From Planktomarina temperata RCA23 (lineage in GTDB: Bacteria > Pseudomonadota > Alphaproteobacteria > Rhodobacterales > Rhodobacteraceae), in NCBI RefSeq assembly GCF_000738435.1, contig NZ_CP003984.1, forward strand, positions 248,001 to 312,000: DNA of 64,000 nt, read 5' to 3'. Below the pieces are notes generated by a model. It searched no databases and was not told where the DNA came from. It saw nothing but the letters and a program-made list of their open reading frames with translations. This document shows, in pieces, positions 48,208 through 64,000 of this stretch (within the stretch, counting starts at the first letter, position 1; each line of letters opens with the position of its first letter). Made by a program: the position numbers and the translations under genes.

Positions 48208-49247
48208 CCATTCCCGCCTTCTCGCGCCGCAAATCAAAATATACGCCCCGCACGGTGGCTGGTGGCGACAGGGTTGCCACCAGCGCCATGATCGCGTCGC
48301 TGGATGCCGAAGGGCGCGATACCGTGGCGGCCCCGTTCGGGCACGCACTGGTCGATCTTGCGAAATCGCGCGACGATATCGTCGGCCTGTCGGCGGACCT
48401 GTCGAAATATACCGATCTGCATATCTTTGCCGAGGCCCATCCCGACCGTTTCTATCAGATGGGTATGGCGGAGGCGCTGCTAATGTCTGCCGCCGCCGGT
48501 CTGGCGCGTGAGGGCTTCGTGCCTTTCGCCACGACTTACGCCGTGTTCGCAGCGCGCCGCGCCTACGACTTCATCGCCATGGCAATTGCCGAGGAAAACC
48601 TGCCGGTCAAAATTTGCTGCGCGCTGCCCGGTTTGTCCACTGGGTACGGCCCCAGTCATCAGGCGACTGAGGATCTGGCGATCATGCGCGGGATGCCGAA
48701 CCTGACGGTGCTGGACCCGTGCGATGCAGTCGAGATTGATCAGGCGACGCGCGCAATCGCGAACTCGCCCGGCCCTGTCTACATGCGGCTGTTGCGTGGC
48801 AAGGTGCCGAACGTGCTGGGCGAATACGGCTACCAGTTCAAACTTGGCAAGGCGCAGATGATACATGATGGGTCGGATGTGCTGATCATCTCTTCAGGGT
48901 TCATGACAATGCGCGCGCTGGATGCGGCCAAGGCGCTGGCCGCCGATGGCGTCTCCTGTGCAGTGCTGCATTCACCGACGATCAAACCACTGGACGCAGA
49001 GATGATTTGTGCCGAGGCAGGCAAGGGCGGACGGCTGGTCGTGACGGCCGAGAATCACTCGATCACCGGCGGACTTGGCGAAGCAGTCGCGGGTGCGTTG
49101 ATGCGGGCGCAGGTGCATGTGCCCTTCCGACAGATCGCGCTGCCGGATGAATTCCTTGACGCGGGCGCGCTGCCCACACTGCACGATCAGTACGGTATCA
49201 CGGTCGAGCGGATCACTGCACAGATCAAAATATGGATGGATGACTAA
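48204..49247 (+). CDS. Split transketolase, C-terminal (pyrimidine-binding) subunit
   Basis: A 347-residue subunit: GLSADLSKYTDLHIFAEAHP, FYQMGMAEALLMSAAAGLA with the conserved ThDP-activating Glu, GYGPSHQATEDLAIMRGMPN, and the C-terminal LVVTAENHSITGGLGEAVAG. It completes the active site with the subunit encoded just upstream, whose stop it overlaps (ATGA). The form is related to AptB and to the DXS-like beta subunits. With the nearby dehydrogenases it may take two-carbon units from an unusual ketose phosphate. Confidence 0.88.
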   Translation: MTIPAFSRRKSKYTPRTVAGGDRVATSAMIASLDAEGRDTVAAPFGHALVDLAKSRDDIVGLSADLSKYTDLHIFAEAHPDRFYQMGMAEALLMSAAAGLAREGFVPFATTYAVFAARRAYDFIAMAIAEENLPVKICCALPGLSTGYGPSHQATEDLAIMRGMPNLTVLDPCDAVEIDQATRAIANSPGPVYMRLLRGKVPNVLGEYGYQFKLGKAQMIHDGSDVLIISSGFMTMRALDAAKALAADGVSCAVLHSPTIKPLDAEMICAEAGKGGRLVVTAENHSITGGLGEAVAGALMRAQVHVPFRQIALPDEFLDAGALPTLHDQYGITVERITAQIKIWMDD

Positions 49248-49248
49248 A

Positions 49249-50171
49249 ATGGGTGGTACTGCGATTATCGGGCTGGGTGCAATGGGGCAGGGCATGGCCC
49301 GCAACATTATGCAGGCGGGCATTTCGCTGCGTGGTTTTGACTTGTCGACAGCCGCGCGAGATCGGTTCGCTGGCGCCGGGGGAATCGCCGAGGACAGCGC
49401 GGTGGATGCAGTCTCGGGTTGTGACCTGTTGCTTGTGATGGTGGCGACAGCCGCGCAGGCCGAGGCAGCGCTTTTCGATGGCGTTTTGGATGCGCTGGCA
49501 AAAGACGCCGTGGTCATCCTGTCCTCCACGGTTGCCCCATCAGAGGCACGGGCGATTGCGGCGCGATTGAACGATGCAGGACACCTGATGCTGGATGCGC
49601 CGGTGTCTGGCGGTCATGTCGGCGCAGACGGCGGTACACTCACCATCATGGCATCCGGCCCCGACACTGCGTTTGATCGGGCCGAGGCGGTGCTGGCGGC
49701 AATATCGAAAAAGGTTCACCGTCTTGGTGACGCACCGGGCATGGGGCAACCTATAAGGTCGTGCATCAACTGGCTGCCGGAGTGCATCTGGTGGCCGCTG
49801 CGGAACTGATGGCATTTGGCACCAAGGCGGGTTGCGATCCGAAAACGCTCCTAGACATCGTCTCGAGCTCTGCTGGCCAAAGCTGGATGTTGGACGACCG
49901 CGCACCGCGCATGATGCAGACCGATCCGGTCCCAACCTCGACTGTCGACATATTTATCAAGGATCTGGGCCTTGTCGTACAATCCGCACGCGATAGTGGC
50001 GCGCCGGTACCTTTGGCTGCGGCGGCCTATCAGATGATGGTGGGCGCGGGTGGCATGGGACTGGGACGGTCAGACGACAGCGCCGTGATCCGCGCCTATG
50101 AGGCACTGACCGGGTGCAGAGTTACCGAAACTGAAGCGGAAATTTCCGCGACAAAGGACGCCAACACATGA
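49249..50171 (+). pseudogene. LtnD-like dehydrogenase, broken by a one-base frameshift
   Basis: From ATG 49249 the first frame gives AIIGLGAMGQGMARNIMQAG, LDAPVSGGHVGADGGTL and VHRLGDAPGMG, then leaves homology. A second frame resumes at once with HQLAAGVHLVAAAELMAFG and runs to 50171. Adding one G to the run of four G at 49743-49746 restores GMGATYKVVHQLAAGVH, the LtnD-type Lys-x-x-His-Gln catalytic stretch. So this is an L-threonate dehydrogenase-like gene (about 307 residues) with a deletion in a homopolymer, or a sequence error. It starts two bases after the transketolase stop and overlaps the SDR gene by four bases. Confidence 0.78.
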
Positions 50172-52039: not shown

Positions 52040-52711
52040 CTAATCTGTCACTGCCTTCAAATTTTGACCTTCATGGGAGATCACGCTAATGATATCTCGT
52101 GATAGTTGATCCAAGTGCTTTCCGATGGCAGCATCAAGGGCCAAAGGCTCTCTATTACGCAATGCCATTAGAATAGCAGTATGTTCCGCTATCACATTAC
52201 TACGATTCCGACGCTTAACTGCAGCAAGAAAACGCGCTCGCCAAAGACGCGCCAAGAAACGAGTGTGGATTTCTGCGATGGGCTCATTATGCGATGCTTT
52301 AGCAATTGCAGAATGAAAACTCATGTCGATTTCGAACATGTCGACGGTGTCTATAGTGCTATAGTTTTCGGACATATGCTGCGTGATTGCAGCAATTTCA
52401 TCAATGTCTTTGTTAGTCGCACGCTCACATGCTAATTTGCCTGATAGCTTTTCAATTGATATCAAAACCTCGACATCGTCGGTAACGGCTTTGATATCCG
52501 GGATTGCAATTATGGGACTACGCGAAGGTCGTAAGGTGATCAGACCTTCGCGCGCTACGATACGGATTGCTTCGCGCATTGGTGTTCGGCTAACGCCAAG
52601 ATCATTAGCTCTGGTGCGCTCTTTTACAGAATCTCCAGGAGTGAGATTACCTCGCAAGATGTCGCGGCGCAGCTGATTTGCAAGTTTTTCTGGCAAAGTT
52701 TGATCCGACAT
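52040..52711 (-). CDS. GntR family regulator, FCD subfamily, of the apionate-type cluster
   Basis: A 223-residue regulator (start at 52711, MSDQTLPEKLANQLRRDIL, with AAGGG six bases before; ATGs at 52726 and 52738 are alternatives). The winged helix has GNLTPGDSVKERTRANDLGV and SRTPMREAIRIVAREGL; the FCD domain has FEIDMSFHSAIAKASHNEPI and a late His in NVIAEHTAIL, giving a likely metal and sugar-acid effector site. It is divergent from the TRAP genes. Palindromes with core TGGTATACCA near the TRAP, denD/dehydrogenase and decayed promoters are its likely operators. Confidence 0.88.
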   Translation of the reverse strand: MSDQTLPEKLANQLRRDILRGNLTPGDSVKERTRANDLGVSRTPMREAIRIVAREGLITLRPSRSPIIAIPDIKAVTDDVEVLISIEKLSGKLACERATNKDIDEIAAITQHMSENYSTIDTVDMFEIDMSFHSAIAKASHNEPIAEIHTRFLARLWRARFLAAVKRRNRSNVIAEHTAILMALRNREPLALDAAIGKHLDQLSRDIISVISHEGQNLKAVTD

Positions 52712-52766
52712 TTGGGGCCCTTGCATTATTCCCAGCATTTTTTCTGATAAGTTGAAATTTCGAAAG

Positions 52767-52776
52767 TTGTATACCG
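52767..52776. promoter_or_regulatory. Degenerate GntR operator before the regulator gene
   Basis: TTGTATACCG at 52767-52776 matches eight of ten bases of the TGGTATACCA core found three more times in the cluster. It is 28 bases upstream of the longest gntR reading, which suits weak self-control. Confidence 0.4.
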
Positions 52777-52839
52777 AAATTTGTTGCGTGTCGATTTAGA
52801 AATGAGTGAAATCTGTTGCGTGCCGATTTGGAAATGAGT
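52776..52839. repeat. Tandem 32-base duplication in the TRAP promoter region
   Basis: Units 52776-52807 and 52808-52839 are adjacent, each 32 bases, and differ only at three transitions. Each unit holds the string TGTTGCGTG and ends GAAATGAGT. The repeat ends 13 bases before the operator palindrome. It may be a duplicated activator or promoter element, or a replication-slippage product. Confidence 0.75.
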
Positions 52840-52852
52840 AGGGTATCTCCTG

Positions 52853-52868
52853 AGATGGTATACCATCT
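52853..52868. promoter_or_regulatory. GntR operator palindrome upstream of the TRAP operon
   Basis: AGATGGTATACCATCT is a perfect 16-base palindrome, 69 bases before the start of the TRAP binding-protein gene. It shares the core TGGTATACCA with 60948-60959 and 62618-62633. FCD-type GntR proteins such as NanR bind GGTATA-type sequences. Confidence 0.7.
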
Positions 52869-52937
52869 TAAATCACTAACTCCAAAGTTTAGTGAGAATA
52901 ATTAGGCGTAAAGTGCCTCAAAGGGAGAGAAACGAAT

Positions 52938-53951
52938 ATGAAGCTTAAAACATTACTTATGACCGCCGTCGCCGGTGCTACATTGGCTAGCGCGGCATTC
53001 GCACAGGACGTAACCTTACGCATCCAAACACACTATGCTACTGAGCATCCTACAGGTAAGATGTTGGCTCAATGGGTAGATGACGTCCAAACTATGTCTG
53101 GAGGCGAGATCTCTATTGAGATGTTCTATTCATCGTCTGTTGTTGCTACTGTTGAAACATTCGATGCTGCAATCAATGGCATTCTTGATTGTGATGCAAC
53201 AGGCGGCGCTTACCAAACTGGTAAAAACCCCGCGTTCCAATTCGTTGGCGACATCATGGGCGGGTACGACACCCCTTGGCAGCAGTATAGCTGGCTATAC
53301 TATGGCGACGGCTACGAAGCGGCTCAGGAGCTCTACAACGCTCAGGGCATGCAGTTGATTGGGTGGGCGGTTTATGGTCAGGAGTCGTTTGCGTCTTCTA
53401 AGCCAATTGCTGGCCCTGCAGATCTTGTAGGTTGGAAATTCCGTTCACCTCCAGGCATGGAGACAGAGATATTCGAAAAAATGGGTGCGTCACCAATCGT
53501 GATGGACTTTACTGAGATCTTTACTGCGCTTGAAACGGGTATCATCGACGGTGCGGATGCATCTGGCTTGGCCAACAACGTGGGACTAGGTCTTTACGAC
53601 ATCGTGAAGCACGCGAACTATCCTGGTTTCCATTCTATGCCATCAGACCACCTCGCTTGTAATCAAGCTGTGTGGGAAGGCCTGACCGAACAACAGCGCC
53701 GCATCATGGAGACGGCCTGGCAAAAGTTATCGTTCCAAATAGCAATGTTGAATGAGAAGGCAAATACTGAGGCGGCTGCTATGCTCCAAGAGCAGGGAGT
53801 CACCCTATATGATTGGTCAACTGAAGATAAAGCTGCATTCCGCGTTGCAGCGCAGGCCGCTTGGGACGATTGGGCCACACGTAGTCCGGAGGCAGCAGCG
53901 CTAGTTGAAAGCCACAAGGTTTACCTTCGCCAGCTGGGTCTCATCAAGTAA
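52938..53951 (+). CDS. dctP: TRAP transporter substrate-binding protein (DctP family)
   Basis: A 337-residue periplasmic binding protein with signal peptide (cut likely after AAFA, residue 22). LRIQTHYATEHPTGKMLAQW opens the mature part; GWKFRSPPGMETEIFEKMGA and ETGIIDGADASGLANN follow, the second with the conserved Arg that binds the carboxylate of the ligand (RSPPG). The gene heads the TRAP operon behind GGGAGAG and is followed by an internal terminator, which would keep it more abundant than the membrane subunits. The ligand is probably a sugar acid, perhaps D-apionate, by gene context. Confidence 0.9.
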   Translation: MKLKTLLMTAVAGATLASAAFAQDVTLRIQTHYATEHPTGKMLAQWVDDVQTMSGGEISIEMFYSSSVVATVETFDAAINGILDCDATGGAYQTGKNPAFQFVGDIMGGYDTPWQQYSWLYYGDGYEAAQELYNAQGMQLIGWAVYGQESFASSKPIAGPADLVGWKFRSPPGMETEIFEKMGASPIVMDFTEIFTALETGIIDGADASGLANNVGLGLYDIVKHANYPGFHSMPSDHLACNQAVWEGLTEQQRRIMETAWQKLSFQIAMLNEKANTEAAAMLQEQGVTLYDWSTEDKAAFRVAAQAAWDDWATRSPEAAALVESHKVYLRQLGLIK

Positions 53952-53985
53952 TATTGGATGACCGCCCCTAACACTTAATGATCAA

Positions 53986-54014
53986 GGCGGGTGCAGTCCG
54001 TGCCCGCCTTTTTT
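53986..54014 (+). terminator. Intra-operon hairpin with T run between dctP and dctQ
   Basis: GGCGGGTGC and GTGCCCGCC pair (with wobble pairs at the loop side) around AGTCC and are followed by TTTTTT. It lies 34 bases after the binding-protein stop. Partial termination here would raise the ratio of binding protein to membrane subunits. Confidence 0.7.
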
Positions 54015-54059
54015 GACCCGAATTTGATGTCCAATCACAGAAAGATTAGGAAGCAAAAA

Positions 54060-54872
54060 ATGCAGATAGAATCGCTTTTTTTAGGGCGCATGAGAGCGCC
54101 GATCAAGACGGGAATGATCGTCTTTTGTGGCCTCACACTTTTGCTTTATCTGTTTCTTGTTGGGCAGCGAATGTTCGCAGTAGAACCCTACGGTATGTTT
54201 GAGATGATACGTCCTGCGGGAAAGCCGCTGGTACAGGTAACACTCACTTGTTTAGCAATATCATTAATCTTTGCATCAATCTTTTTGTCCGACACTAAAG
54301 GCGCAATTGAAACGCCTCCTGACGGTTTTTTTGATCTTGTGTCCGTGGTTTTGGGGCGCCTTGCGATGATTATGACAGCTTTTATTGTGCTAGTAATGTT
54401 CTACGAGGTCGTTTCGCGCTACGTATTCTCGCGGCCAACACTTTGGGCCAATGAACTGTCCCTGTGGATCGGATGTTTCGTTTTTTTGTTTGCAGGACTT
54501 TACGCCATGCAACAACGTAGCCATATCCGAATTTACATCATTTACGACACAATGCCTTGGTGGATGCAAAAAACATCTGACTGTATCTCCGTCCTGTTGA
54601 TCGTTGCCTTCACCTTCGCCCTTGTTTGGGGTGGCTATACCGATGCCGAGAACCGCTTCATGCGGATGGAGACCTTTGGCACGGCTTGGGATCCGCCTAT
54701 CCCTGGTATTGTCAAACCCGCACTACTAATCATTGTTGTCTTGGTCTGCATTCAAGCTGTTTCTAACTTGTTCGCCGATTGGAATAAGGCACCGCAGTCG
54801 CACACACCGGCCGACGAGATCGATGAAATGGAAATCGAAAACATCCGCCGTACTCTTGAGGAAAAGAACTAA
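54060..54872 (+). CDS. dctQ: TRAP transporter small membrane subunit (DctQ family), enlarged
   Basis: A 270-residue protein, start at 54060 behind AGGAAG. Residues 95-230 are a normal DctQ domain of four segments with EVVSRYVFSRPTLWANELSLW near residue 116. About 95 residues are added in front, with two more membrane segments (about 16-38 and 58-77); ordinary DctQ is about 160-190 residues. Its stop overlaps the DctM start (TAATG). It supports the large subunit in importing the ligand of the binding protein. Confidence 0.88.
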   Translation: MQIESLFLGRMRAPIKTGMIVFCGLTLLLYLFLVGQRMFAVEPYGMFEMIRPAGKPLVQVTLTCLAISLIFASIFLSDTKGAIETPPDGFFDLVSVVLGRLAMIMTAFIVLVMFYEVVSRYVFSRPTLWANELSLWIGCFVFLFAGLYAMQQRSHIRIYIIYDTMPWWMQKTSDCISVLLIVAFTFALVWGGYTDAENRFMRMETFGTAWDPPIPGIVKPALLIIVVLVCIQAVSNLFADWNKAPQSHTPADEIDEMEIENIRRTLEEKN

Positions 54873-56467
54873 TGGTCGATATTGGCACACTATCTCTTAT
54901 CGTTCTTCTGGGTATGTTCGCCCTGTTGGCCATTGGTATGCCTCTTGGGTTTGCCTCGGCGTTCTTGGCTGTTGTCACCCTCTCTTTAAAGTTCCCACCT
55001 GATCTTTTATGGGGTGATTTTGGGCGTGGCCCGCTGTCTGTCCTGGGGCAGGCGGTCTATCGGCAAATGACGAATTATGTGCTCATATCGGTTCCGTTAT
55101 TTATATTCATGGCTGCAATGCTGGAGCGGTCTGGTATTGCGCGGGATATGTATTCGTCGCTCAACGTTTGGATGAGCCGGATGCGTGGCGGCATCGCCAT
55201 AGCTACGTCTATCATGGCGGTAATAATGGCCGCGATGTCTGGTATTATCGGCGGTGAAGTTGTGCTGCTTGGCTTAATCGCTTTGCCCCAGATGTTACGA
55301 CTTGGCTATGATCGCAATCTTGCTATTGGTACGATCTGTGCGTCTGGTTCACTGGGAACCATGATACCACCATCGATAGTTTTAATTTTTTACGGTCTTG
55401 TAACAGAGACATCTATCAAGGCGTTGTTCACCGCATCTTTTTTGCCAGGTTTTATGCTAGCATCGTTCTTCATTCTATATATTTTGATCCGCACGCGAGC
55501 GAACACATCATTAGCCCCCTTGCCAGATCCAATCCCGGGCGAGCCCGAAGGCTCAGAAAAGGGTTTGATGTTCCTCGGCTTTATCTCACGCTTTGCGATG
55601 TGGGTGTCGGGTGTTTTGTTCCTTCGCGCGGTCTTTTTTACCATGACAGGTGACAATACAATCCGCGAAAATGAAGACCCGATCACGTTGGGTATGGTCG
55701 CTGACATCCCTTGGATAGTTGGCGCGTTTGTGATCTTTGCTTTAATTGTGTTCGTGGTCGTTGGACGTGAACGTACCCAACGTGGTTGGAAAATGGGTAA
55801 AGGACTCATAGCCCCAATTGTTGTCATTGGTGTGGTCTTAGGGTCCATTTATGGTGGCATTACAGGTATCACTGAAGCTGCCGGCATGGGTGTGATCGCC
55901 GTATTCGCCATCGGTATCATCCGCCGCGAAATGACGTTTGATATCGTTTGGGACAGCTTGATCCGTACGCTTAAGTCGACAGGCACGATTATCTGGGTCA
56001 CAATCGGTGCAGCAGCTTTGGCTGCTGCCTATACGCTTGTTGGTGGACCAACCTATGTAGCTAACATGATCATTGGAGCAGAGCTGCCAACGATGGGTAT
56101 CATATTGATGATGATGCTTGTGTTTTTGATCATGGGCATGTTCATGGATTGGGTCGGTATCGTGCTCTTGATTATGCCGGTATTCCTACCCATCGTAGTA
56201 CGACTTCCAGTTGAGGAAATCGGGCTCTTCGGCAGCATAGAAGCACGCTACATTCCGATCTGGTTCGGCGTTGTATTCTGTATGAACATGCAAGTCAGCT
56301 TTTTGTCACCACCCTTTGGCCCCGCGGCTTTCTATCTAAAGTCTGTTGCGCCGCCCGAGATTTCGCTGACAGATATCTTCCGCGGTTTCTTGCCGTTCAT
56401 CTGTTTGCAACTGTTGGCACTTTCAACCCTGCTGATCTGGCCGAACATTATCACCATGTTCTTATGA
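54872..56467 (+). CDS. dctM: TRAP transporter large membrane subunit (DctM family), enlarged
   Basis: A 531-residue permease, against about 430 for typical DctM. Family motifs: GMPLGFASAFLAVVTLSL, IPLFIFMAAMLERSG-like VPLFIFMAAMLERSGIARD, ICASGSLGTMIPPSIVLIFYG, and late MGMFMDWVGIVLLIMPVFLP. About 100 extra residues (roughly 215-310) separate the two halves and hold two additional membrane segments. With the enlarged DctQ it forms a distinct TRAP subtype. It uses the sodium gradient to import the ligand. Confidence 0.92.
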   Translation: MVDIGTLSLIVLLGMFALLAIGMPLGFASAFLAVVTLSLKFPPDLLWGDFGRGPLSVLGQAVYRQMTNYVLISVPLFIFMAAMLERSGIARDMYSSLNVWMSRMRGGIAIATSIMAVIMAAMSGIIGGEVVLLGLIALPQMLRLGYDRNLAIGTICASGSLGTMIPPSIVLIFYGLVTETSIKALFTASFLPGFMLASFFILYILIRTRANTSLAPLPDPIPGEPEGSEKGLMFLGFISRFAMWVSGVLFLRAVFFTMTGDNTIRENEDPITLGMVADIPWIVGAFVIFALIVFVVVGRERTQRGWKMGKGLIAPIVVIGVVLGSIYGGITGITEAAGMGVIAVFAIGIIRREMTFDIVWDSLIRTLKSTGTIIWVTIGAAALAAAYTLVGGPTYVANMIIGAELPTMGIILMMMLVFLIMGMFMDWVGIVLLIMPVFLPIVVRLPVEEIGLFGSIEARYIPIWFGVVFCMNMQVSFLSPPFGPAAFYLKSVAPPEISLTDIFRGFLPFICLQLLALSTLLIWPNIITMFL

Positions 56468-56491
56468 CTACGGCTAATATGGAGAAATAAT

Positions 56492-57322
56492 ATGACTGAC
56501 AAACTGGTTCTTATGGGTGCTGGCGGCAAGATGGGTGTACGGAGTGCCGCCAACCTTGCGAGAACCGATTTCGACGTGGCGCATGTTGAAATCTCCGAAG
56601 CCGGACGCGCTCGATTGAAAGAGACTGTGGGCGTTGATTGCGTCGACATCGACAGTGCGATGGAGGGTGCAGACATCGTCCTGCTGGCCGTCCCAGATAC
56701 CGCTATCAAAGCCGTCGCCGCTACGATCATCGACAAAGTGCCAAGTGGCGCGATGGTTATCTGCCTTGATGCGGCGGGTCCATTTGCTGGCCATCTACCC
56801 GCTCGTGAAGACGTTACTTATTTTGTTACGCACCCTTGCCATCCCCCGATTTACAACGACGAAAAAACAGACGCTGGCCGGAAGGACTACTTCGGTGGGA
56901 TCGCCGCAGAACAGGGTATCGTAAACGCACTGATGCAAGGCCCGGAGAATCACTATGCTTTGGGTGAAAAAGTGGGTCGCGCCATCTATGCGCCTGTTGC
57001 GCGGAGCCACCGTGTCACGGTCGAACAGATGGCCTTGCTGGAGCCAGGCTTGTCCGAAACCGTTTGCGCATCCTTGCTAGACGTCATGCGTGAAGCCATG
57101 GACGAAGTTGTACGCCGTGGCGTGCCAAAGGAAGCTGCGCGTGACTTCTTACTCGGCCATATGAACATTCTTGGTGCTGTAATATTTGAGGAAGTTGATG
57201 GAGTGTTTTCAGACGCGTGCAACAAGGCGATTGAATTCGGCAAGCCTGTCCTGATGCGTGATGACTGGAAGCGGGTGTTCGAGCCAGACGAGATTGCCGC
57301 CAGTATTCAACGCATTACCTAA
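56492..57322 (+). CDS. apnO: D-apionate oxidoisomerase-like protein
   Basis: A 276-residue protein with an N-terminal Rossmann fold (LMGAGGKMGVRSAANLARTD) and a C-terminal all-helical domain of the PF16896 phosphogluconate dehydrogenase C-term type (FVTHPCHPPIYNDEKTDAG, ARSHRVTVEQMALLEPGLSE). ApnO of the known D-apionate pathways has this architecture and catalyses NAD-dependent oxidation with hydroxymethyl migration to 3-oxo-isoapionate. The following genes encode the next two enzyme types of that pathway, in order, which supports the call. Activity itself is inferred. Confidence 0.72.
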   Translation: MTDKLVLMGAGGKMGVRSAANLARTDFDVAHVEISEAGRARLKETVGVDCVDIDSAMEGADIVLLAVPDTAIKAVAATIIDKVPSGAMVICLDAAGPFAGHLPAREDVTYFVTHPCHPPIYNDEKTDAGRKDYFGGIAAEQGIVNALMQGPENHYALGEKVGRAIYAPVARSHRVTVEQMALLEPGLSETVCASLLDVMREAMDEVVRRGVPKEAARDFLLGHMNILGAVIFEEVDGVFSDACNKAIEFGKPVLMRDDWKRVFEPDEIAASIQRIT

Positions 57323-57335
57323 ACTGATAGATCTA

Positions 57336-58664
57336 ATGAATATTGGCGAAAAACCTGTTCTGGCGTGGCTGGGTGATGATTTTACTGGTGCCGCAGCCGT
57401 CATGGAAGTACTGGCGTTCGCTGGCTTGCCGGCAGTGTTGTTCTTGCGCCCGCCAACACCAGAACGGATGGAAGATTTTCCAGATATGCGTGGGATCGGT
57501 ATCGCCAGTATGGCACGTACGTTTGATGCTGATCGTATGGATGAAGAATTGCCAGTCCTATTCGATATTCTCGCAAAAACAGGTGCGACATTGGTGCAAT
57601 ACAAGACGTGCTCAACCCTCGATTCAGCACCTCATATTGGATCAATCGGCAAAGCTATGGACATCGGTTCAAAGGCGTTTGATACCAACACAATCCCGGT
57701 CATGATAGCAGCCCCTGAAATGCGCCGTTACCAAGCATTTGGGCAGCTGTTTGCAGGAACTGATGCAGGGGTTTTCCGTTTAGACAGACACCCCGTTATG
57801 GCTAGGCATCCCGTGACACCTATGGGCGAAGCGGATGTGGCAGTGCATTTGTCGGCACAAACCAAAATGGCGATGCACTGCCTCAATTTTGAAGTTTTGA
57901 GTGATCTGGAAGGCGCTAAGGCTGCGATGGACATTGCTCAGGGTGGGATCACTATTGATCAGATGACATCCGCAGATGTTACGTCTGCGGGTGAGCTGTT
58001 GTGGGGCGCTGGGCATCGGTTTGTAGTTGGCTCACAAGGGATCGCCTATGCATTGGTCGCGTATTTCCAAAAGACAGGTGTGCTTGCGGCGTCACCTGCC
58101 GTCAAAGGCATTGGCCGCGCCAAGCGGATGGCTGTGGTGTCAGGTTCGGTATCGCCAATTACGGGGGATCAAATTGCATGGGCGCTAGACAACGGATTTG
58201 TGGATATCAGATTGGATGTTGTACGGGCTTGTGAAGGTGATCTTGCTGCCGAAGAAATCCGTGTTTTGGCTGCTGCGAAAGCCGCGTTGGAGCGCGATCA
58301 AGTCCCGCTAATCTATACTGCGCGTGGCACAGATGACCTGGCTGTCATGCAATTACGAGAGGCGGCTGGCGACGATCTTGCACAAATAAACGATGAGATT
58401 GGCACTTCTCTTGGACGTATCCTTGCGCGGCTCGTCGATCAATCGGCACTTGATCGCGCTGTGGTTTCGGGTGGCGATACCTCGGGGCATGTGTGCAGGG
58501 CCTTGGGCATCGATGCACTTACCGCCGCCGCCCCTACCATTCCAGGCGCTGCAATTTGCTTTGCCCATGGCGGAACGCGGCCGCTTACGTTGGCACTGAA
58601 GGGCGGACAGATGGGCAGCCGCGATTACTTTGGATGGGTTCTGAATGGAGGTGGCCAAAAATGA
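57336..58664 (+). CDS. oiaK: 3-oxo-isoapionate kinase-like DUF1537 (four-carbon acid sugar kinase) protein
   Basis: A 442-residue two-domain kinase. The N-terminal substrate domain begins LAWLGDDFTGAAAVMEVLAF with the DDxTGA motif; the C-terminal nucleotide domain has VVSGGDTSGHVCRALGID and FAHGGTRPLTLALKGGQMGS. These define DUF1537 kinases (OtnK, DtnK, OiaK). It starts 13 bases after apnO and overlaps the RuBisCO-like gene by four bases. In this setting OiaK (phosphorylating 3-oxo-isoapionate at O4) is the best match; OtnK-type tetronate kinase is the alternative. Confidence 0.75.
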   Translation: MNIGEKPVLAWLGDDFTGAAAVMEVLAFAGLPAVLFLRPPTPERMEDFPDMRGIGIASMARTFDADRMDEELPVLFDILAKTGATLVQYKTCSTLDSAPHIGSIGKAMDIGSKAFDTNTIPVMIAAPEMRRYQAFGQLFAGTDAGVFRLDRHPVMARHPVTPMGEADVAVHLSAQTKMAMHCLNFEVLSDLEGAKAAMDIAQGGITIDQMTSADVTSAGELLWGAGHRFVVGSQGIAYALVAYFQKTGVLAASPAVKGIGRAKRMAVVSGSVSPITGDQIAWALDNGFVDIRLDVVRACEGDLAAEEIRVLAAAKAALERDQVPLIYTARGTDDLAVMQLREAAGDDLAQINDEIGTSLGRILARLVDQSALDRAVVSGGDTSGHVCRALGIDALTAAAPTIPGAAICFAHGGTRPLTLALKGGQMGSRDYFGWVLNGGGQK

Positions 58665-59920
58665 CACGTTTGAAAGCAACCTATGAAATCGAAAGCCCCG
58701 TGGGCGTACAGCGCGCCGCTGAAGTTATGGCTGGTGAGCAATCGACAGGCACCTTCATGCGTCTCGCATCTGAGACCGACGCATTGCGCGGCCGCTCCGC
58801 AGCGCGGTTGGATCATATTGAAATCACGGGCACCTCTAGTCATCCTGCTTTGCCGTGTAGGTTAAGTGCTGAGAACTATGAGCAAGGCCGCGTAACCATT
58901 AGTTGGCCGATGGAAAACTTTGGCCCGTCCTTGCCCAATATCCTTGCCACTGTTGCAGGTAATTTATTTGAACTGGCCGAACTTTCTGCGATCCGGCTTG
59001 TGGATCTTGGTATACCTAATGCGCTGGCAACAGGGTGTCCTGGCCCTCAGTTTGGGATCGCAGGCACGCGACAGCTGATGGGAGTGCCAAGCGGGCCGAT
59101 GATCGGGACGATTGTAAAGCCGAGCGTTGGATTAAGTGCTAAGCAAACGGCCGAACTTGTTAGTGATCTGGCGAAGGCGGACATCGATTTCATCAAGGAT
59201 GACGAGTTGCAAGGCAACGGACCCGCATGCCCGTTTGCTGATCGCGCCAAATTGGTGATGCAGGTTTTGAATAGTGCCGCGCAAAAGTCAGGGCGCAAGG
59301 TCATGTATGCCTTCAATATCACTGACGAGATTGACGCGATGCGTCGTAACATTGACCTGCTCGAAAGCCTTGGTGCGACCTGTGCAATGATATCGCTAAA
59401 CTCTATCGGCATGGCTGGCCTGAGGGCGATGCGCGACCACAGCCCGCTTCCGATCCATGCTCACCGCAATGGATGGGGTTTGATGTCGCGCTCGCCGCAC
59501 ATAGGGGTCGCCTATTCCGTAATGCAAAAACTGTGGCGGTTGGCGGGCAGCGATCATTTGCATGTGAACGGTCTCGCCAACAAGTTCACTGAGGATGATG
59601 ACGTCGTTACTAACTCCGCGCGCGCCGTGCAAGCGCCCCTGAGCGAGGCTAGGCCACACGTGGCTTTACCGGTATTTTCCTCTGGTCAAACCGCGTGGCA
59701 AGTAGGCCCCTCGATGGAACTGCTCGGGAATGACGATTTTCTGTTCTGCGCAGGCGGTGGGATCATGAGCCATCCGGACGGACCCGCTGCAGGTATTACT
59801 AGTTTACGCCAAGCTGCAGCCGCACAAAAGGCAGGCGAGCGAGTGGAAGATTACGCCAAAGATCACCCTGAGTTAGCGGCTGCGTTGGCAACATTTAAGA
59901 GCACTGTGAACCGGAATTAG
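58661..59920 (+). CDS. RuBisCO-like protein, probable 3-oxo-isoapionate-4-phosphate-cleaving enzyme
   Basis: A 419-residue RuBisCO large-subunit homologue. The start at 58661 overlaps the kinase stop. Active-site positions are kept: KPSVGL (Lys153), DFIKDDE with carbamate Lys179 and metal ligands Asp181 and Glu182, HAHR (His268, Arg269), His301, loop-6 Lys308, and the phosphate-binding CAGGGIMSHPDGPAAG. The known D-apionate pathways use RuBisCO-like proteins either as a decarboxylase or as a transcarboxylase/hydrolase giving 3-phosphoglycerate and glycolate. No erythrulose-phosphate isomerases are nearby, so the second is favoured. True CO2 fixation is unlikely. Confidence 0.8.
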   Translation: MTRLKATYEIESPVGVQRAAEVMAGEQSTGTFMRLASETDALRGRSAARLDHIEITGTSSHPALPCRLSAENYEQGRVTISWPMENFGPSLPNILATVAGNLFELAELSAIRLVDLGIPNALATGCPGPQFGIAGTRQLMGVPSGPMIGTIVKPSVGLSAKQTAELVSDLAKADIDFIKDDELQGNGPACPFADRAKLVMQVLNSAAQKSGRKVMYAFNITDEIDAMRRNIDLLESLGATCAMISLNSIGMAGLRAMRDHSPLPIHAHRNGWGLMSRSPHIGVAYSVMQKLWRLAGSDHLHVNGLANKFTEDDDVVTNSARAVQAPLSEARPHVALPVFSSGQTAWQVGPSMELLGNDDFLFCAGGGIMSHPDGPAAGITSLRQAAAAQKAGERVEDYAKDHPELAAALATFKSTVNRN

Positions 59921-60882
59921 TCGTTCGGTTTGTCGTCTTCCAAGTAGTAGCGAATATTGTCTTGAAATGTGTCGTCGGCGTTCAGGCCCAAACGAAGTGC
60001 TTTGTCCGCGTGGATGTCCCAACGCCAGCCTGACACGATCTGCTTAATATCGGGCTGCGGATCCCATTGGATTAGTTTAGCTGCTTCAGGGCCTGAAACG
60101 GCTGTCATTGCGTCGATGACTTGAGCAATGGACCATGTCTTGCCAGGCATTTGCATGACGCGGTTCTGGCCTATGTCTGCGGCGTTCAATTCGGCACCTT
60201 TGACCAGATTTTCAACGCAGCGGCGTGGACTAAGATAGTAGTGTAAGAAGTCCGCCTCAACGGGGCAGATCGCTTCTCGGCCGTTCAGCGGTTCTCGCAG
60301 AATTGATGACATGAAGCTGCTGGCTGCGCGGTTCGGCTTGCCGGGACGCACGGATATGGTCGGTAGACGGAAAGCTCGACCATCGATGAACCCTTTGCGC
60401 GAATAATCATTGATCAGCAACTCACCCGCTGCTTTTTGCATTCCATAAGACGTCTGTGGATTGGGGTAACTGTGATCGCCAAGTGGATCCTTCGCCTCGC
60501 CTCCATAGACAGCCATTGAAGAAGAGAACACCAACATGGGTACTGTTCCCAAGGCACGGCAGCGCTCGAGCACATTGTAGGTACCGAACAAGTTGATGTT
60601 CATACCTGCGTCAAAGTCTTCTTCTGCATGGGCGCTGACGATCGCGGCCAGCAGATAGATCACATCAATTTTTGCTGTCACACAGGTAGCAACTGACGCG
60701 GCATCGCTGATATCGCAAGTGACGGTTTGGACAGGAAAGGGGGCTTCGATTGTGGGCGGTTCCATGACGTCTGCCAACGTAACTTGTGTTATCGCCTTGC
60801 CCTTTAGCGTCGGGCTGGCACCTAATTTCAATGCCAGCTTTTGGCCCAAAAAACCGCCACCGCCTAGTATCAGAATGTTCAT
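59917..60882 (-). CDS. denD: D-erythronate dehydrogenase-like NAD-dependent epimerase/dehydratase
   Basis: A 321-residue extended SDR: ILGGGGFLGQKLALKLG at the start, VFSSSMAVYGGEAKD, TSYGMQKAAGELLINDY with the catalytic Tyr and Lys, and FRLPTISVRPGKPNRAASSF. The last motif is typical of DenD, which oxidises D-erythronate to 2-oxo-erythronate. It converges on the RuBisCO-like gene with a four-base overlap and is divergent from the dehydrogenase at 61016 across a GntR operator, so it belongs to the regulon. Its step in an apionate route is not obvious; it may oxidise a related acid. Confidence 0.75.
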   Translation of the reverse strand: MNILILGGGGFLGQKLALKLGASPTLKGKAITQVTLADVMEPPTIEAPFPVQTVTCDISDAASVATCVTAKIDVIYLLAAIVSAHAEEDFDAGMNINLFGTYNVLERCRALGTVPMLVFSSSMAVYGGEAKDPLGDHSYPNPQTSYGMQKAAGELLINDYSRKGFIDGRAFRLPTISVRPGKPNRAASSFMSSILREPLNGREAICPVEADFLHYYLSPRRCVENLVKGAELNAADIGQNRVMQMPGKTWSIAQVIDAMTAVSGPEAAKLIQWDPQPDIKQIVSGWRWDIHADKALRLGLNADDTFQDNIRYYLEDDKPND

Positions 60883-60947
60883 GTCATATTCCCCTATGTG
60901 CCTAGCACTGATGACATTATGTGCTTCGTGCTTGCAACGTTGCCGTG

Positions 60948-60959
60948 ATGGTATACCAT
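60948..60959. promoter_or_regulatory. GntR operator palindrome between denD and the 61016 dehydrogenase
   Basis: ATGGTATACCAT, a perfect 12-base palindrome with the shared core, lies midway in the 133-base divergent gap: 66 bases before denD and 57 before the other gene. One bound regulator could shut both promoters. Confidence 0.65.
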
Positions 60960-61015
60960 TTCATCAACGTGATTTAATGCGCCCTTGTCAAGGGCTCGCA
61001 CCTGGAGGAATAAAA

Positions 61016-61939
61016 ATGGCGCAAGATATGACAATTGGCTTTATTGGCGTGGGCTTTATGGGTCACGGGATGGCGAGTAATCTGATCAAATGTGGCTATC
61101 CGATGTGGATCAAAGGCAACCGTAACCGCGAGCCGCTCGAAAGTCTGATTGCCAAAGGCGCGCAAGAGGCGACGACCCCACGCGAGATGGCGCAGCACTG
61201 CGATATCATCCACCTGTGCCTGTCGAACTCACTACAAGTTGAGGCGGTGATCCGTGGCTGTGACGGTGTTCTTGCGGGAGCGCGCGACGGACTTATCGTT
61301 ATCGACGCCACGACGGCAGATCCCAACTCAACAGCGGTTTTGGTGGATGAGTTGGCAGAAAAAGGGGCTACGCTAGTTGATGCGCCGTTGGGGCGCACGC
61401 CGAAGGAAGCCGAGGCCGGTACGCTTGATGCAATGGTCGGCTGCGATGAGGCGACCTTTGCCAAGATCAAACCCGTGTTGGAATGCTGGGCAGGGAACAT
61501 CACCCATGTCGGCGGCACTGGTAGTGGCCACAAAATGAAACTGCTGATGAACTTCATTTCAATGGGTTACGCCGCGCTTTATGCTGAGGCGACCGTCTTA
61601 GGGGCTTCGGTTGGTTTGCAGCCTGCGAAAGTGCGCGAAGTGATTGGATCAAGTCGCTTGTCCAATGGGTTCTTTGATACATTCATGACTTACGCCGTCG
61701 ATCGGGATCGGGAGGTTCATAAATTTACAATCGAAAATGCGTCCAAAGACTTGCGCTATGTAAATACAATGGCTGCAGAGGCTGGCGTGGTAAACGTCAT
61801 GGCAGGGGCAGCCAAACATTACTTTACTCATGTAGAGGCCTTGGGGCAGGGCGCTGATTACGTTCCGATGCTGATTGATCATGTTGCGCGGATGAACGGC
61901 ATGGACATGGAGGTCGAGGCCGCCAAAGGCCGCGACTGA
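61016..61939 (+). CDS. HIBADH-family NAD(P)-dependent 2-hydroxy acid dehydrogenase
   Basis: A 307-residue protein starting at 61016 behind a strong GGAGGAAT site. The nucleotide motif is GFIGVGFMGHGMASNLIKCG, the substrate loop DAPLGRTPKEAEAGTL, and the catalytic lysine is in GTGSGHKMKLLMNFIS with the usual Asn four residues on. It fits the 2-hydroxy-3-oxopropionate reductase/3-hydroxyisobutyrate dehydrogenase family. It is divergent from denD across an operator, so it is part of the same regulon. It may process a product such as tartronate semialdehyde; inference only. Confidence 0.82.
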   Translation: MAQDMTIGFIGVGFMGHGMASNLIKCGYPMWIKGNRNREPLESLIAKGAQEATTPREMAQHCDIIHLCLSNSLQVEAVIRGCDGVLAGARDGLIVIDATTADPNSTAVLVDELAEKGATLVDAPLGRTPKEAEAGTLDAMVGCDEATFAKIKPVLECWAGNITHVGGTGSGHKMKLLMNFISMGYAALYAEATVLGASVGLQPAKVREVIGSSRLSNGFFDTFMTYAVDRDREVHKFTIENASKDLRYVNTMAAEAGVVNVMAGAAKHYFTHVEALGQGADYVPMLIDHVARMNGMDMEVEAAKGRD

Positions 61940-62034
61940 TCAGTTGTCCATTGTGGCACGGCCATCGCTCAGTAAATTAAATAATGCGTTGCTATTCGCT
62001 GAATCCGCTTCTGACGTTGGGTGCCATCGCGGTT

Positions 62035-62453
62035 TCAGCGGCGCCCACAACGTCTAGCTTTGAGACCACTCTCGAAATACGGCACGACGACAACACCGTA
62101 GATGTCGGCCATTGCAATGGTGCTGCTTTTTGCGAGTTGGTCGCCAAGGCTGGCATAAAGTCCGACATGCTTCGGCCAGTCGGCATAGGTCAATTGTGGC
62201 TCAAACCTTTGCACCACGCAGGCAAGTGGACGTTTTGTATGCTCACAAGGTATCGCATCGGGCTGTCTGCCATAAAACCGATGCCACCTTTTTGGATAAG
62301 CATCGCGAGAACCGTATCGCCTTCTTGCATGCCATGGACAGCATCTAATGTGACTAAGCTGCAACGTGCGTAGTTGTCGTTGACCGCATGGACCGCGATA
62401 AGCACGCCGATTAGTGATGAAAATGTGGGCTTCACGGCTATAACTCCAACCAT
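62035..62453 (-). pseudogene. Decayed RraA-family (aldolase/demethylmenaquinone methyltransferase-like) gene
   Basis: Two minus-strand frames carry pieces of one RraA-like protein. The first (from 62453) has VTLDAVHGMQEGDTVLAMLI and GIGFMADSPMRYLVSIQNV with PAWCKGLSH, matching the family's GDVLV and DG-x-RD-type motifs in order. It meets a TGA at 62190. The second continues with DWPKHVGLYASLGDQLA and MADIYGVVVVPYFESGL, the family's closing GVVVVP strand. Segments between are missing and key residues are changed, so the gene is dead. It would have been transcribed from the 62618 operator region. Confidence 0.6.
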
Positions 62454-62617
62454 ATGGCTCGCAAATGAACCCCTTCGGTCGGCATCTAAATGCAGAGATC
62501 CATGCTATGGTTGTGCGTGGAGAATTCATGCGCAAGGTCAGCTTTTTGGGCTTCCGATAATCAGTCGCCCCATGAATGGGGGCATCGCGCATTTTTTTGA
62601 CGGCGAATTATACTTGC

Positions 62618-62633
62618 ATTTGGTATACCAAAT
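62618..62633. promoter_or_regulatory. GntR operator palindrome between two decayed genes
   Basis: ATTTGGTATACCAAAT is a perfect 16-base palindrome with the shared TGGTATACCA core. It lies between the minus-strand RraA-like remnant and the plus-strand SDR remnant (57 bases before its ATG). The operator is intact although both genes are broken. Confidence 0.65.
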
Positions 62634-62689
62634 TGCCAACTTGTGAAAATACCGCCAATTCGGGGCTGCAATCATAAGGGGAGTTCACC

Positions 62690-62910
62690 ATGCCATCCAT
62701 TCTCATCACAGTTGCAGGCAGCGGCGTCGGCCGCGCAAGTGCCAAGGTGTTCTTGGCAGAGGGCTGGCATGTGGGCCTCGTTGGCCGACGCGAAGGACCG
62801 CTTGCAGCAAACTGCAGAGGAACATAACCAAGCTTTGGTGTTGCCCTGTGATATCACCAATGAAACCGAAGTTGACACCGCCTGCGCCAGAAGCCAACAT
62901 CCAGGTGGAC
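62690..62910 (+). pseudogene. 5' fragment of a short-chain dehydrogenase gene with frameshift
   Basis: AAGGGGAG precedes ATG at 62690. The first frame reads ILITVAGSGVGRASAKVFLA then GWHVGLVGRR, an SDR nucleotide fold in which the first TG is changed to TV. Homology then moves to another frame: DRLQQTAEEHNQALVLPCDI with NETEVDTA, the next SDR strand. After about 62900 similarity ends; the catalytic Tyr-Lys part is missing. The fragment keeps the operator, ribosome site and start, so it was cut recently. Confidence 0.65.
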
Positions 62911-62976: not shown

Positions 62977-64000
62977 ATGGATTTCGTACGATTGGACCGA
63001 GCCGATACGGTGGTGACGGCGACCCGCAGTTTATCCCCTGACAGTGAAGTTGAGCGGATCGCTATCCGTTCCGCGATCCCCTCCGGCCATAAGGTCGCCA
63101 CCCAAGCAATGGCCGCAGGGGATCCTGTGCGCAAATATGCCCAAATCATCGGCTATGCGTCCTGTGACATTTTGCCAGGTGATCACGTGCATACCCACAA
63201 CGTGGCCTTTCGCAATACTGATACAGACTATGAGTTCTCAACAGATTTACGCGCCGTGGCACCGGCCGCGACGCAGGATTATTTCATGGGCTATCGCCGT
63301 GAAAACGGCACGGTTGGCACACGCAATTACCTTGCCATCGTCACCTCGGTCAATTGCTCTGCCACTGCCGCGCGCATGATCGCGGATCATTTTACGGCGG
63401 ATGTGCTGGCGGAGTATCCAAATGTGGACGGTGTGGCCGCCTTTGTGCATGGCACGGGATGCGGCATGGCCGACTCTGGTGATGGGTTTGAGGCTCTACA
63501 GCGGGTGATGTGGGGCTATGCCAAACATCCCAACCATGCTGGGGTGCTCATGGTGGGCCTCGGCTGTGAGATGAACCAAATTGATTGGTTGCTTGAGGCC
63601 TATGGGCTTAAGCACAGCGAGACCTTTCAAACGATGAATATTCAAAAAGTTGCAGGCCTGCGGCAGACCGTTGAGCTCGGCATTGCCAAAATCAAAGCTA
63701 TGCTGCCAATTGCCAATCAAGCACGCCGCGAGCAGTGCCCGGCCTCTGACTTGATGGTCGCGTTGCAATGCGGCGGCTCTGATGCTTGGTCAGGCGTGAC
63801 CGCCAATCCGGCGCTCGGTTATGCCTGCGATCTGTTGACGGCCCAAGGTGCGACGGGCGTGTTGGCCGAAACCCCTGAAATCTATGGTGCTGAGCATCTG
63901 TTGACCCGCCGTGCAGTGACCCCGGCGGTGGGTGAGCGCTTGCTTGGTCTGATCAAATGGTGGGAGGATTACACGGCGCGCAACAATGGCTCCATGGATA
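62977..64000 (+). CDS. UxaA family sugar-acid dehydratase, N-terminal part (runs off window)
   Basis: From ATG 62977 (AAGGATTGAG before it) the frame is open for 341 codons to the window end. Residues 1-95 form an SAF domain (MDFVRLDRADTVVTATRSL, PGDHVHTHN). Then GYRRENGTVGTRNYLAIVTS with VNCSATAARMIADHF, HGTGCGM and LVALQCGGSD-like VALQCGGSDAWSGVTANPAL follow, as in altronate and galactarate dehydratases (about 500 residues). It eliminates water from an aldonic or aldaric acid using iron. Base and codon use resemble the region left of 42.9 kb, so it probably lies beyond the island and once joined the sugar-acid locus there. Confidence 0.85.
   Translation, partial: MDFVRLDRADTVVTATRSLSPDSEVERIAIRSAIPSGHKVATQAMAAGDPVRKYAQIIGYASCDILPGDHVHTHNVAFRNTDTDYEFSTDLRAVAPAATQDYFMGYRRENGTVGTRNYLAIVTSVNCSATAARMIADHFTADVLAEYPNVDGVAAFVHGTGCGMADSGDGFEALQRVMWGYAKHPNHAGVLMVGLGCEMNQIDWLLEAYGLKHSETFQTMNIQKVAGLRQTVELGIAKIKAMLPIANQARREQCPASDLMVALQCGGSDAWSGVTANPALGYACDLLTAQGATGVLAETPEIYGAEHLLTRRAVTPAVGERLLGLIKWWEDYTARNNGSMD

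Follow-up and report, generated by a model that had tools for sequence, protein, structure and literature searches.

D-apiose and D-apionate are reportedly degraded with the help of RuBisCO-like proteins (RLPs), OiaX and OiaT, as laid out by Carter et al. in 2018, and the pathway chemistry used here is that ascribed to this work. The catabolism of D-erythronate and L-threonate is said to proceed via DenD, LtnD, OtnI, OtnK and OtnC (Zhang et al., 2016), and the abstract of this second study reportedly already names neighbourhoods of genes for tripartite ATP-independent periplasmic (TRAP) transporters, DUF1537 proteins and members of the RuBisCO family. A review (PMC6302742) names 3-oxo-isoapionate 4-phosphate as the substrate of RLPs from A. 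radiobacter K84 and X. autotrophicus, with decarboxylation and transcarboxylation/hydrolysis as the reactions, and the L-threonate route is covered in PMC12540250. Additionally, growth on D-apiose is reported for a marine Rhodobacteraceae strain, LCG007, in PMC11747546. Here, we describe a stretch of 64,000 nucleotides (the window, positions 248001-312000 of the single 3.29-Mb contig of Planktomarina temperata RCA23) in which genes for an ApnO-type enzyme, a DUF1537 kinase and an RLP follow those of a TRAP transporter and a GntR-type regulator.

We consider it reasonably probable that these three enzymes form an apionate module that lies in an older marine Rhodobacteraceae sugar-acid locus, behind its TRAP genes and under its GntR regulator. 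The features on which this interpretation rests are the following:

52040-52738, minus strand: GntR/FCD-family regulator (Pfam GntR and FCD above their cut-offs)
52855-52866: operator ATGGTATACCAT, a perfect palindrome, within the wider palindrome AGATGGTATACCATCT at 52853-52868
52938-53951, plus strand: DctP, TRAP solute-binding protein (PF03480)
54060-54872, plus strand: DctQ, TRAP small permease, 270 residues, N-terminally enlarged (PF04290 at residues 109-241)
54872-56467, plus strand: DctM, TRAP large permease, enlarged, 531 residues (PF06808, a Pfam model of 413 positions)
56492-57322, plus strand: PGDH_C protein of the ApnO type, predicted D-apionate oxidoisomerase by orthology (PF16896, 245 bits)
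57336-58664, plus strand: DUF1537 kinase, on the OiaK side by its NCBIfam scores
58661-59920, plus strand: RLP, probably of the OiaT type (PF00016, 224 bits)

As in the OiaX/OiaT apionate systems, ApnO-, OiaK- and RLP-type enzymes are encoded in one operon, and relatives of the RLP, in Roseibium and others, belong to clusters that include ApnL. By contrast, the window genome has neither an ApnL match nor a close ApsD, a TRAP transporter takes the place of the ABC system, the GntR and TRAP genes are common to a sugar-acid locus, and the kinase and the RLP score below their NCBIfam cut-offs. The D-apiose cluster of LCG007, as described in PMC11747546, likewise belongs to a marine member of the Rhodobacteraceae and includes a D-apionate oxidoisomerase and a 3-oxoisoapionate kinase, but it is annotated with a lactonase, an apiose dehydrogenase and a decarboxylase (EC 4.1.1.121).

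The gene families that the first-pass annotation of the window had named (a GntR/FCD regulator, an enlarged TRAP system, an ApnO-like protein, a DUF1537 kinase and an RLP) are confirmed by Pfam and NCBIfam matches, and the coupled starts that it had noticed are found as overlaps of 1 base between dctQ and dctM and of 4 bases between the kinase and RLP genes. The gaps from dctM to apnO and from apnO to the kinase gene measure 24 and 13 bases, respectively. One RLP (PF00016) and one DUF1537 protein were detected in the whole genome, and an RLP 100% identical to that of the window is encoded in a metagenome-assembled genome, Loktanella sp. bin.44, with the same genes around it.

The kinship of the three enzymes supports their assignment to apionate catabolism, which had also been proposed from the sequence alone. 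The PGDH_C protein is akin to the PGDH_C proteins of ApnL-bearing clusters, sharing 71% identity with the Roseibium aggregatum protein (L033) and 81% with that of locus L064. Its identity is 95% to the protein of Sulfitobacter FRAM18_bin033 (L137), 88-89% to those of L139-L141 and 54-68% to those of L042, L158 and L142; none of the matches listed in the NCBIfam scan of this protein is an ApnO family. The Roseibium cluster comprises NanR, ApnL, a Gfo/Idh protein, an ABC system, ApnO, an RLP and a kinase, and its lactonase scores above the cut-off of ApnL, the D-apionate lactonase (919 vs. 750 bits). The same trio is found in such D-apiose clusters within the family. As the kinase and the RLP of the Roseibium cluster likewise score below the cut-offs, at 432 bits for OiaK and 414 bits for OiaX, the low scores of their window counterparts do not exclude apionate catabolism. 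Regarding the entry point, in searches run without a positive-control genome, an ApnL query that finds relatives in other loci gave no match in the window genome at E 0.001, and an ApsD query that works in other loci gave only distant Gfo/Idh matches (32-33% identity), which points to apionate, not apiose, as the entry substrate; D-apiose was consequently rejected in this role. In Yoonia sediminilitoris (L138), the TRAP, DMT, kinase, RLP and DenD genes occur in the same order and apnO is missing from its position; the genome encodes two ApnO homologues (82% and 68% identity) at other sites.

The active-site residues of the RLP, which had been described as complete, are indeed all found: E26, N101, K153, K179, D181, E182, H268, R269, H301, K308, S341 and G365-G367, which presumably correspond to E60, N123, K175, K201, D203, E204, H294, R295, H327, K334, S379 and G403-405 of RuBisCO. 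The protein thus has a full RuBisCO-type active site and is linked to ApnO and to an OiaK-side kinase, as would be an RLP of the OiaT type. It is 87% identical to the RLP of Sulfitobacter L137, and its closest solved structure is PDB 3nwr (402 bits over residues 4-412), an RLP whose listing states no reaction. In a tree of 120 RLPs, obtained by a quick search with support from SH-aLRT (the Shimodaira-Hasegawa-like approximate likelihood ratio test) only and omitting L136, L145, L146, L148, L213, L072 and L073, a branch of 1.55 leads to a clade of the four proteins that exceed the cut-off of OiaX, and eight proteins whose loci combine TRAP genes with a VOC protein form a second clade. The window protein belongs to a clade of 106, which also contains that of the Xanthobacteraceae locus L168 and those of Ancylobacter (L164, L176, L196 and L215), which we take to be a member of the Xanthobacteraceae. 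At positions 26, 101 and 301, the window protein and 107 others outside the OiaX and VOC-linked groups have E, N (with one G) and H, as do the eight VOC-linked proteins, whereas the four OiaX proteins have D, G and Q (D, G, Q and Q when H299 is included). These residues separate the OiaX group but not the window protein from the VOC-linked one, and E26/N101/H301 vs. D/G/Q may offer a sequence test to tell OiaT-type from OiaX-type RLPs. The distance from the OiaX clade, together with these residues, makes the OiaT type (transcarboxylase/hydrolase) likelier, and the RLP is predicted to be probably of this type.

In each of the eight loci of the VOC-linked clade (L037, L059, L061, L065, L067, L070, L071 and L078), TRAP genes occur together with genes for a VOC/glyoxalase-fold protein and for a DUF1537 kinase, and ApnO was not found within the stretches examined. 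Perhaps they represent another RLP pathway, with the VOC protein replacing ApnO.

The operator that had been proposed to be shared within the locus is also real. Exactly two ATGGTATACCAT sites exist in the 3.29-Mb genome, one before dctP and the other in the space that separates denD from the HIBADH gene; both are conserved in Sulfitobacter L137. The reversed pattern has zero matches across the genome, and none of 100 shuffles of the window gave two matches to ATGGTATACCAT at up to one mismatch. Regulators of the FCD type have operators of similar general shape. From the position and symmetry of the sites, we infer that the GntR protein, which is 57% identical to a Loktanella salsilacus GntR encoded divergently from the same TRAP genes, binds ATGGTATACCAT.

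The shorter form of the operator, TGGTATACCA, was found in 17 of 20 stretches around close relatives of DctP, each time near the DctP or GntR start. Elsewhere, it lies upstream of genes for LtnD, HAD2, LysE, IdnD/SDRa, SDRb, HIB and IlvD, and it is upstream of SDRb in the relatives L124 and L137. It also precedes the RLP operon in L042, L043 and L158, with a NanR-type gene first in L043. Among 122 RLP loci, a site is present in 12 of the 13 with a close DenD and in 4 of the 109 without one. Overall, there are 35 sites in 2.2 Mb, where eight control palindromes occur 0 to 5 times each. At the level of genomes of the family, DctP occurs in 17 of the 25 that hold this type of RLP (16/24 without the window genome) and in 64 of the 270 others, which include four OiaX genomes, four with VOC-linked RLPs only and G147 (a fragment, 245 bits). 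These counts, in which kinship is left uncorrected, argue that the RLP trio and the TRAP regulon are genuinely linked.

The first-pass annotation had inferred that D-apionate is imported by this TRAP system. The shared operator, also present before RLP operons in three loci, agrees with this proposal; the distribution of the transporter weakens the case for a dedicated D-apionate importer. A close DctP (E <=1e-80) is found in 81 of the 295 family genomes, 17 of which hold this type of RLP; the distance between the two is no more than 10 kb in only two genomes, G070 and that of the window, a count in which contig ends may conceal others. In the 20 surroundings of DctP that were examined (about 20 kb each, the RLP of G070 falling outside its stretch), a UxaA-type gene is present in 14 and an RLP in none. 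For instance, Loktanella salsilacus has a TRAP system with a DctP 81% identical to that of the window and no RLP in the 40 kb examined. The window TRAP thus looks like the importer, by descent, of another sugar-acid locus, and the idea of a specialised apionate invention was rejected because related systems are widespread in genomes where no RLP adjoins them. More generally, TRAP genes often occur near an RLP and ApnO (33 of 92 such loci, and 29 of 86 with the kinase as well, counting a DctM-type match anywhere in the locus), including in Halomonas and Ancylobacter, and the window enzymes belong to an already known kind. A TRAP system beside a catabolic trio need not, then, reveal the TRAP ligand. 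In the literature that we searched, none joins apionate with an RLP, or apiose catabolism with a TRAP transporter; as the key papers of 2016 and 2018 lie outside its coverage, this says little.

Downstream of the RLP gene, the window contains the following features:

59917-60882, minus strand: DenD-type D-erythronate dehydrogenase (NCBIfam NF043036, 388 bits vs. a cut-off of 325)
60948-60959: second operator ATGGTATACCAT, between denD (minus) and the HIBADH gene (plus)
61016-61939, plus strand: HIBADH-family beta-hydroxyacid dehydrogenase (PF03446 and PF14833)
61980-62671, minus strand: remnant of a broken RraA-like gene (tblastn pieces in different frames with a stop, intact relatives as queries)
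62622-62631: TGGTATACCA, a shorter third copy of the operator, upstream of the broken SDR gene (L002:11622-11631)
62690-62897, plus strand: remnant of a broken SDRb gene (tblastn pieces in different frames)
62977-64000, plus strand: UxaA/GarD-family sugar-acid dehydratase, continuing beyond the window end

The RLP and DenD genes are convergent, with a 4-base overlap. Behind the trio, the older locus resumes with the UxaA/GarD dehydratase, Gfo/Idh and HIBADH-type proteins, a DMT protein and a PfkB kinase, and it also encodes a fructuronate-reductase-like enzyme (232 bits vs. a cut-off of 603) and a glucuronate isomerase above its cut-off. In Sulfitobacter L137, the RraA-like (PF03737) and SDRb genes are intact, in the order HIBADH, RraA-like, SDRb.

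The DenD and HIBADH-type dehydrogenases had been taken as a possible variant branch of apionate catabolism, a proposal that finds no support here. DenD is 77% identical to that of Loktanella, where there is no RLP in the 40 kb examined, and the HIBADH-type protein, which is below the cut-off of every NCBIfam family listed, is 66-68% identical to proteins of the RLP-free DctP stretches L124 and L125. As such relatives share the operator and lie in stretches that have no RLP, the simplest interpretation is that the two enzymes serve tetronates or other acids, and both are best read as members of the older regulon and not as a new apionate branch. Compared with the described D-erythronate/L-threonate catabolism, the window has a DenD above the family cut-off, and Loktanella has the same operator before LtnD-OtnK-OtnC-OtnI genes and the TRAP genes; by contrast, the window genome has no second DUF1537 kinase or convincing OtnC, and its kinase scores on the OiaK side. 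With a single kinase and no convincing OtnC, DenD would be either left over or rewired. In L165, L178, L188 and L207, tetronate genes (LtnD, OtnK, OtnC and OtnI, in varying sets) adjoin an RLP, which suggests that tetronate and apionate catabolism have been paired repeatedly.

In the mechanism that we propose from gene content and homology, an acid ligand would free GntR from the ATGGTATACCAT operators, and the TRAP system would import sugar acids of the tetronate/aldonate class, among them D-apionate (chemically a 3-hydroxymethyl tetronate). ApnO would then oxidise and rearrange D-apionate to 3-oxo-isoapionate, the kinase would convert this to the 4-phosphate, and the RLP would shift the carboxylate and hydrolyse the product to 3-phosphoglycerate and glycolate. 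The best match to the glycolate oxidase GlcD in the genome scores 454 bits vs. a cut-off of 568. DenD and the HIBADH-type enzyme would act on other acids of the regulon or be left over from it. The locus would thus illustrate RLP-based apionate use in a marine bacterium and in connection with a TRAP system, with an apionate module housed within a pre-existing sugar-acid regulon and a directly testable two-site operator.

Several results weigh against this interpretation. The kinase reaches 408 bits vs. the 700 of the NCBIfam OiaK family (NF042436), with 161 bits for 3-oxo-tetronate kinase, and the RLP 390 vs. 700 bits for OiaX (NF042437). In the RLP tree, the Xanthobacteraceae proteins substitute for a characterised OiaT (among 20 listed of 287 plasmid records, none is from Xanthobacter), and the best solved relative of DctP by sequence, 4pe3 (182 bits), is listed without a ligand. 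The association counts are uncorrected for kinship and, along the tree, none of the contrasts is significant, the pairs being too few in each case: TRAP vs. ApsD/ApnL (9 informative pairs, median p 0.25), DenD vs. ApsD/ApnL (7 pairs on supported branches, median p 1) and DenD vs. HIB (7 pairs, median p 1). Additionally, DenD is near the RLP in each of L137-L141, the five nearest relatives from other species, a pattern that a shared pathway would also explain; a second DUF1537 kinase was not found in the window genome, and the best OtnC match there, 28% identical, is unconvincing.

Some of these observations would suit other explanations. One is that the TRAP system is dedicated to the import of D-apionate, with DenD and the HIBADH-type enzyme as a variant apionate branch under the same operator. 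In its favour, TRAP and trio are adjacent under one operator with two genomic sites, an arrangement conserved in Sulfitobacter L137 (plus a DMT gene) and in Yoonia L138 (minus the adjacent apnO). Moreover, among 97 loci with an RLP and ApnO (DenD in 20, ApsD in 35 and ApnL in 34), DenD never shares a locus with ApsD or ApnL (0/20 DenD loci vs. 35/77 and 34/77 of the others; Fisher p 4e-5 and 1e-4, uncorrected). These counts include the duplicates L063/L145, L064/L148, L066/L146 and L044/L213 and the window species twice (L002/L136); L136, L145, L146, L148 and L213 were removed for the tree-pair tests and site counts, which leaves the 92 loci with an RLP and ApnO. However, DctP and GntR often occur where no RLP adjoins them, relatives of DenD and the HIBADH-type enzyme (66-77% identity) lie in stretches without one, and the same operator is also upstream of tetronate and aldonate genes, so that we regard such a dedicated system as unlikely. 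The genes could also serve D-erythronate, with DenD giving the 2-oxo acid, an OtnI-like protein the 3-oxo acid, and the RLP decarboxylating the product of the kinase in place of OtnC. Such a route would account for the single DUF1537 kinase, the poor OtnC match, the OtnI-like protein of the genome (60% identity) and an intact DenD that is near the RLP in relatives, but it leaves no role for ApnO, which is more strongly conserved than the other two enzymes (82-95% in the five near relatives). All five near relatives also retain two (G296, G298, G299 and G300) or three (G297) DUF1537 kinases, so they would need no substitute, and we find this route quite improbable.

The remaining alternatives concern the RLP. 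That it is a simple OiaX-like decarboxylase, giving L-erythrulose 1-phosphate and CO2, might be thought because OiaX is its top NCBIfam match, but its score is far below the cut-off, its clade is separate and the OiaX proteins differ at E26, N101, H299 and H301; an OiaX identity was rejected on these grounds, and a reaction of this kind appears decidedly unlikely. A methionine-salvage enolase (MtnW or DK-MTP), the grouping proposed as a check on the assignment, would be of the same superfamily, but with 143 bits vs. a cut-off of 514 for MtnW (TIGR03332) and 180 vs. 409 for the enolase model PRK09549, and with sugar-acid genes as neighbours, the protein is not MtnW-like; this identity, rejected as both cut-offs are missed, is already strongly disfavoured and has a practically negligible probability.

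Two further observations were made in the window. At 49117-50171, the older locus has a HIBADH/LtnD-type gene that spans two reading frames and is apparently broken, and two tandem 32-base repeats, 91% alike, lie at 52776-52839 between the regulator and dctP, directly before the operator.

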